Positions 27,772 to 29,282 of a stretch of DNA of 64,000 nt are shown here, piece by piece (positions within the stretch are counted from its first letter, which is position 1; every line of letters starts with the position of its first letter). Position numbers and translations under genes: made by a program. The notes under the pieces were generated by a model that saw nothing but the letters and a program-made list of their open reading frames with translations, was not told where the DNA came from and did no database searches. Source of the stretch: Prevotella sp. (lineage in GTDB: Bacteria; Bacteroidota; Bacteroidia; Bacteroidales; Bacteroidaceae); assembly GCA_016281815.1 (NCBI GenBank), contig JAEEJK010000043.1, forward strand, positions 31,207-95,206. The letters run 5' to 3'.

Positions 27772-28602
27772 ATGAGAAAGATTTTTTTACTCACCGCCTT
27801 CACATGCCTGTTTACCGTTTTCTGCCACGCTCAGAAGAAATACGAAATGGTCGTTGAGAAGACCGACGGCTCGAACATTGTTGTCAACACCGAGGACATC
27901 ATACGCACCTATTTCCGGGAGAGGACAGGAGGTGGTAATAATGAGGGAGGTATTGGTGATACCTCACAAGCATACCTTGCCTGCCCCGATAACCACCACC
28001 CCCACATGATTGACCTCGGACTGCCCTCCGGCACAAAGTGGGCATGCTGCAACGTAGGCGCTCCCTTGCCCGAGACAGTTGGCGGTTACTACGCATGGGG
28101 CGAGACACAGGAGAAGAGTGTATACAATTCAGTTAATTATCAGTATGCCACCGGAGTGGACGATGATGGTGACGGCAGGTATGATGACCACCATAGTGAT
28201 ACAGATGCGTATGGTGTTTGGCAGTACCTTGGTTCCGACATCGCTGGCACCCAGTATGATGTTGCCTATGTGAAGTGGGGCGGCCCTTGGCGGATGCCAA
28301 CATGTGACCAAATCGAGGAATTGCTCCAATGGTGTGATGTCAAATGGACAAGCCGGAATGGAATCAAAGGATGCCTATTTACCAGTTATAAATCCGGTGG
28401 CACTATCTTCTTGCCAGCGGCGGGCTACCGCCTCGGCTCCGACCTTTACTATGCCGGCTCGCGCGGCTACTACTGGTCGTCCACGCAGTACCCGTCGTAC
28501 GCGGTCGACGCCTACTACCTGTACTTCAATTCGGGCGGCACTGGCGCGGACTTCCTCAGCCGCAGCTACGGTCGAAGCGTCCGCCCGGTAGTCAGAAAAT
28601 AG
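27772..28602 (+). CDS. Secreted DUF1566/Fibrobacter-paralog-like protein with C-type-lectin-like hypervariable C-terminus (candidate DGR target)
   Basis: MIDLGLPSGTKWACCNVGA...GYYAWGE...WRMPTCDQIEELL...LPAAGYR...GYYWSST...SVRPV. Confidence 0.75.
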   Translation: MRKIFLLTAFTCLFTVFCHAQKKYEMVVEKTDGSNIVVNTEDIIRTYFRERTGGGNNEGGIGDTSQAYLACPDNHHPHMIDLGLPSGTKWACCNVGAPLPETVGGYYAWGETQEKSVYNSVNYQYATGVDDDGDGRYDDHHSDTDAYGVWQYLGSDIAGTQYDVAYVKWGGPWRMPTCDQIEELLQWCDVKWTSRNGIKGCLFTSYKSGGTIFLPAAGYRLGSDLYYAGSRGYYWSSTQYPSYAVDAYYLYFNSGGTGADFLSRSYGRSVRPVVRK

Positions 28603-28648
28603 TGCATCCTTCCCAAAAGAATCAATGCCCCCGACCCAACGTCTAATT

Positions 28649-28738
28649 CGGCAAATCCCACTCACGGACAGGCGGTGGGGCGTAGGCCTCCCAAGGCCTA
28701 CATCCAGCCCCACTGCAGGCCGTGAGTGGGATTTGCCG
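28649..28738. repeat. Long hairpin/cruciform downstream of the candidate DGR target
   Basis: CGGCAAATCCCACTCACGG / CCGTGAGTGGGATTTGCCG (19 bp perfect), GTGGGGC/GCCCCAC, GTAGGCCT/AGGCCTAC, loop ccca. Confidence 0.9.
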
Positions 28739-29213: not shown

Positions 29214-29282
29214 AATTTTCAATTTTCAATTTTCAATTTTCAATCTTCAATCTTTAATTTTCAATTTTCAATTTTCAATTTT
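29214..29282 (-). repeat. Heptamer array (TTTTCAA/TCTTCAA on + strand)
   Basis: Direct reading; abuts stop of 29281-29925 gene. Confidence 0.9.

Follow-up and report, generated by a model that had tools for sequence, protein, structure and literature searches.

The window, a 64-kb stretch of DNA that forms part of contig C62 in a 4.1-Mb draft genome (127 contigs, 92% complete), contains a gene whose product begins with a stretch resembling, by eye, a signal peptide (MRKIFLLTAFTCLFTVFCHAQ) and continues through a linker into a C-terminal variable domain. The gene is followed by a short motif and a long hairpin (Table 1). The neighbourhood of the gene is bordered by GGGACGCGATGTAT(C/T)GCGTCC repeats, and intergenic CAATTTT runs are seen repeatedly (window 27174, 28773; 29220-29280, 46306, 59505). 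Diversity-generating retroelements (DGRs) are systems that copy a template while randomising its adenines, and the preliminary description had proposed that the 3′ end of this gene is a DGR variable region. The ORF terminates exactly in the peptide quoted there. The switch to A-poor, GC-rich sequence is confirmed, positions 28431-28590 containing 23 A in 160 nt at a GC of 0.65, and so is the enrichment in NNC codons, which make up 40 of 66 codons in 28405-28602 against 75 of 211 earlier in the ORF; A content drops from 26% to 16% between the same two parts. Since 2.8% of 160-nt segments on the + strand of the window are equally A-poor, composition alone says little, and the case is carried by homology and codon-position tests.

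Table 1. Features of the remote target locus in the window (TR, template repeat).
Feature	Position	Strand	Basis or detail
Target gene, 276-aa protein	27772-28602	+	ORF ending in stop codon
DGR-target-type domain, IDLGLPSGTKWA...YYAWGET...MP...FLPAAG...SVRPV	27979-28599	+	Comparison with 20 related domains
Variable repeat (VR), 61 codons	28408-28590	+	Alignment to C49 TR
VR core, near-perfect fit to C49 TR	28454-28536	+	11/23 A-sites and 2/60 non-A sites differ
TGCATCCTT motif, candidate homing/initiation site	28603-28611	+	Common to ends of sister VRs and C49 TR
Long hairpin/cruciform, 90 nt, candidate DGR target-recognition structure	28649-28738	+	DNA fold

The DGR-target-type domain is 38-66% identical to 20 related domains, mostly targets of Bacteroidales DGR cassettes. 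The protein matches Pfam Lcl_C (PF07603) below threshold (E 6.4e-5, 23.7 bits versus a cut-off of 34.9). An AlphaFold2 model of the domain, built from a domain-only alignment and not from the full-length protein, has a mean pLDDT of 89. Comparison of the model with PDB structures gave zero matches at E ≤ 0.001, and thus none to CLec-fold DGR proteins such as Mtd and TvpA, so the lectin-like fold attributed to the protein is unconfirmed. The sole structural hint is a weak top match to the C-terminal domain of Legionella Lcl (E 0.12 over 42 columns), which agrees with the Pfam match below threshold. The protein is presumably secreted and, by analogy with DGR targets in general, may bind a ligand at the cell surface or outside the cell.

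The window had been described as free of a DGR reverse transcriptase (RT) and template, and indeed all RVT_1 matches of the genome sit on other contigs. It was argued that the sequence would then have to be a remote target or a non-DGR relative; the former is supported by a DGR on contig C49. There, a 710-aa target with a VR at its end is followed by a hairpin, then by a 184-aa MutS_I-like accessory gene, a TR and a 393-aa RT. The target domain belongs to the family of the window protein (60% identity). The RT, whose intact ORF contains the motifs IGNLTSQ and YVDD, has matches to RVT_1 and to a family of phage RTs. The TR and its cognate VR mismatch at 32 of 52 TR adenines and at 0 of 140 C/G/T positions, apart from one 3-nt gap. 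No other RT locus of the genome has a TR/VR pair: the RTs on C118 and C77 are group II-intron-like (judged by eye), and the C17 RT (L002:1093-2358) fits UG26, a class of RTs of the defence type (E 1.3e-158). Repeat-scan pairs on C64 reflect paralogue similarity instead of a TR/VR relationship. Rfam gave zero matches for the window hairpin or the C49 cassette. The only match in viral contigs is a distant one (28% identity), so nothing hints at a phage as its home. The post-VR motif recurs in inverted orientation, as AAGGATGCA, ~160 nt before the C49 TR (L061:4864-4872) and in a cassette remnant on C68 (L080:4041-4049). Together with TGCATCCTT behind the TR, the inverted copy could allow the ends of the template RNA to pair.

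We collected 45 RT relatives. A-biased TR/VR pairs were found in about 20 Bacteroidales cassettes with window-like target domains, and the order in related GTDB cassettes is again target, hairpin, accessory gene, TR, RT. An accessory gene of ~180 aa lies between VR/hairpin and TR (C49: L061:4295-4849; relatives L107-L147), in place of Avd. The accessory genes match MutS domain I near the Pfam cut-off (E down to 1.6e-4), with one member above it. MutS-like DGR accessory proteins have been described previously.

Within the genome the window-protein family comprises 57 matching stretches and roughly 15-20 VR-like domains, mostly decayed, and many of the C-termini have drifted at all positions. 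On C117 a single ORF of about 2,000 aa or more (C117:2501-8380; L062:2-5881) contains, as read by eye, a VWA-like part, three FN3-like repeats and five VR-type domains with Ig-like spacers. Two loci retain pieces of a cassette: C32 (L079:1414-1880) has kept VR and hairpin next to an accessory gene truncated after about 100 codons, and C68 (L080:3830-4200) combines a VR with a deleted accessory gene and still has a template leader, but neither TR nor RT. DNA matches to window-like VRs occur in 13 other genomes, accompanied by a detected related RT in G177 only. VRs can thus outlive their DGR.

We compared the window VR with the C49 TR over 61 codons and found differences at 30 of 51 A-sites and 21 of 132 non-A sites (Fisher test, p 2.5e-8). 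All 21 AAY codons of the TR correspond to NNY in the VR, and 19 of them retain the third base. The adenine bias appears strong though not exclusive. Both flanks of the VR have non-A mismatches, so the C49 TR is not its direct template; judged by this comparison, it is a related sister template. The direct template was not encountered. A whole-genome pattern search for an A-mutable source of a 66-nt core of the VR turned up nothing beyond the C49 TR, a single VR of C117 and the window sequence, and no template with a skeleton matching the window VR was found in the assembly. A pattern search of 60 relatives for the 5′ part of the second template as we infer it (TR2) had a C117 VR as its sole match. 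Among 398 genomes of the genus, a related TR core is present in one other, G177. The candidate second template at C14:7320 is a short VR-like relic lacking template-type A-rich codons. The near-copy richer in adenine and next to an RT that the preliminary description had proposed to look for therefore exists in part: TR and RT are there on C49, but this TR is only a sister of the one needed.

VRs written from one template should agree at third codon positions (non-A in AAC) and differ at positions 1 and 2, whatever the age of the genes. The best of 15 paralogue comparisons was with C117_5, the final VR domain in the C117 protein, and the effect survives correction for that choice. Within the VR the two sequences differ by 29/29/5% at codon positions 1/2/3, with 56 of 59 third positions identical against 28.5 ± 3.0 in a composition shuffle. 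Over the ~111 codons just upstream the differences are 30/28/52%, with 53 of 111 third positions identical. VR and upstream part are thus distinct at third positions (Fisher test, p about 1e-10) and alike at positions 1-2 (p 1.0). The same trend, weaker, is seen in the third-position differences of VR versus upstream part for C117_4 (15% versus 58%), C49 (21% versus 58%) and C32 (21% versus 55%). VRs of other species in G177 and G237 give 15% versus 49-67%, although choosing these for their similarity to the query DNA favours similar VRs. Identity at position 3 combined with diversified positions 1-2 indicates that the window VR and C117_5 most likely derive from one adenine-mutated template, absent from the assembly. 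Adenine-mutagenic copying produces such a pattern, whereas drift, gene conversion and selection acting on the protein do not. It is highly improbable that this is an ordinary family of paralogous domains in which mutation, selection and gene conversion created the diversity with no DGR involved, as the dozens of genome copies and the many drifted C-termini might suggest, because gene conversion would equalise positions 1-2 too, the opposite of what is observed, drift would not spare position 3, and within this family the genome holds a TR/VR pair with A-specific differences. Genome searches found no gene-conversion donor matching all three codon positions.

The sequence behind the VR points in the same direction as the codon-position test. 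TGCATCCTT starts directly after the stop codon and has no second copy on the + strand of the window; the motif stands behind nine VRs and behind the C49 TR. An extended form, TGCATCCTTNCCC, has eight copies in the genome, of which seven immediately follow family members (the C90 copy among those checked) and the eighth (C120:44509) lies inside an unrelated coding gene. The window copy reads TGCATCCTTCCCA and is therefore not one of these eight. In the C117 protein gene TGCATCCTT follows the last VR only, so the inner copies look frozen. The window hairpin has 19-bp perfect outer arms, inner stems and a 5-nt bulge on the 3′ side. Its fold, about –49 kcal/mol, is more stable than all ~1500 random 160-nt segments of the window. 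Hairpin-like sequence elsewhere in the genome occurs only behind VRs, two further weak matches (E 0.17-0.59) being at chance level. Among seven regions folded in the genome, the hairpin is intact at the window, C49 and C32 only. Related GTDB cassettes carry the same kind of structure behind their VRs with unrelated stem sequences (median –39.7 versus –19.3 kcal/mol background). VR hairpins in Bacteroidales (L107-L142) often have a 3′-side bulge with TACCCA-like sequence between inner and outer stem. In phage BPP-1 a hairpin/cruciform behind the VR is needed for retrohoming while its stem sequence is free (PMC3240598), and by analogy we infer homing roles for TGCATCCTT and the window hairpin. 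Hairpins are common behind genes, and the window stem is followed by CTTTTG, as would suit a mere transcription terminator that tells nothing about a DGR. We consider this improbable: the C49 hairpin has no T-run behind it, the 3′-bulged shape recurs behind VRs with unrelated stem sequences, and in C49 and its relatives the hairpin sits between VR and accessory gene, within the cassette.

The DGR variable region proposed for the C-terminus is therefore supported by A-site bias, NNY codons, third-position homogenisation, motif and hairpin, and the C49 DGR. Overall, we suggest that the target gene of Table 1 is a remote target of a Bacteroidales DGR, with a probability of roughly 0.87. Its last 61 codons would have been written by mutagenic retrohoming from an RNA template, with AAY codons turned into NNY. 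That template, TR2, would be a sister of the C49 TR located outside the assembly. TGCATCCTT and the hairpin directly after the stop codon would steer retrohoming, with RT and MutS_I-like accessory protein acting in trans. As far as can be read from the DNA, the target site is apparently complete, with both motif and hairpin present. The missing template of matching skeleton counts against a DGR target, as do the 21 non-A differences from the C49 TR and the related VR-like genes in genomes with no detected related RT; the assembly, a draft, is 92% complete.

The remote-target reading has two sub-cases, a fossil and a site still being rewritten, and current activity is unproven because the template is absent from the assembly. 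We would give even odds to a fossil VR, written earlier, then deprived of its template and now frozen and evolving as an ordinary gene. The missing template, the decayed cassettes on C68 and C32, the internal C117 VR copies without motif and the general lack of an RT in genomes with such VRs all fit this course of events. However, the motif and the perfect outer arms are preserved, and only 3 of 59 third positions differ from C117_5 next to a strongly diverged upstream part, which makes the last writing comparatively recent. A remote target active today, served in trans by the C49 RT and accessory protein together with an unassembled second template, is a real possibility, though one we hold at below even odds. 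The ORF and TGCATCCTT motif in the window are intact, as is the C49 RT ORF, and the near-perfect hairpin has been lost by most other orphan VRs of this genome. Remote targets can be active: in Trichodesmium, 11 of 18 TR/VR-homologous loci are hypervariable in reads (PMC8867640). Against activity stand the lack of a matching template in the assembly and the broken state of several sister cassettes, with a truncated accessory gene on C32 and no TR or RT on C68. As all recognisable cis elements are kept at the window site, it may either still be served in trans or have been frozen recently.

A remote DGR-written VR is of a kind already known from Treponema denticola (PMC4891356) and Trichodesmium (PMC8867640). 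The TvpA-type remote targets of T. denticola likewise combine one RT/TR with several dispersed targets carrying C-terminal VRs, and in isolate SP32 a remote VR can fit a TR other than the resident one. The authors consider the extra targets possibly leftovers that may still function (PMC4891356). Unlike in T. denticola, the target family is a different one, the matching TR is missing and the cassette includes a MutS_I-like accessory gene. Our locus resembles the DGR of Bordetella phage BPP-1 (mtd, TR, brt, avd) in that a C-terminal VR is A-to-N mutagenised and followed by a hairpin/cruciform, but the target is remote and not adjacent, and a MutS_I-like protein takes the place of Avd. Phage-type hairpins have stems of 7-10 bp and a 4-nt GRNA loop (PMC3240598), whereas here the stem is about 30-40 bp with a 3′ bulge. 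The sub-threshold Lcl_C match and the weak structural match to Lcl recall DUF1566/Lcl_C DGR targets (DUF1566 is mentioned in PMC6642488); the window protein differs from them in its score under the Pfam cut-off and in a long IDLGLPSG...YAWGET part in front. Closest is the C49 DGR, with the same target domain, motif and bulged hairpin and a TR that the window VR core fits at 58 of 60 non-A positions, the mismatched flanks being the difference.

The points of interest are how many VR relatives this genome contains, the lack of the template and a C117 protein with five VRs. Remote targets escape DGR finders that depend on a TR and VR close to the RT, a limit that Roux et al. state for their own survey (PMC8144416). 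The third-codon-position test can recognise DGR-written genes even with no template at hand, and its outcome suggests that one genome may carry many more DGR-written genes than would be expected from a single RT. An active site would offer a ready model of remote targeting in a DGR type with MutS_I-like accessory protein and long bulged hairpin. More tentatively still, the DGR of these Prevotella-like bacteria might found a standing protein library: successive templates write dispersed VRs, and after templates and RTs have disappeared the frozen variants persist, undergo duplication and are strung together, as in the five VRs of C117. If so, the genome would hold a live plus an inherited repertoire.
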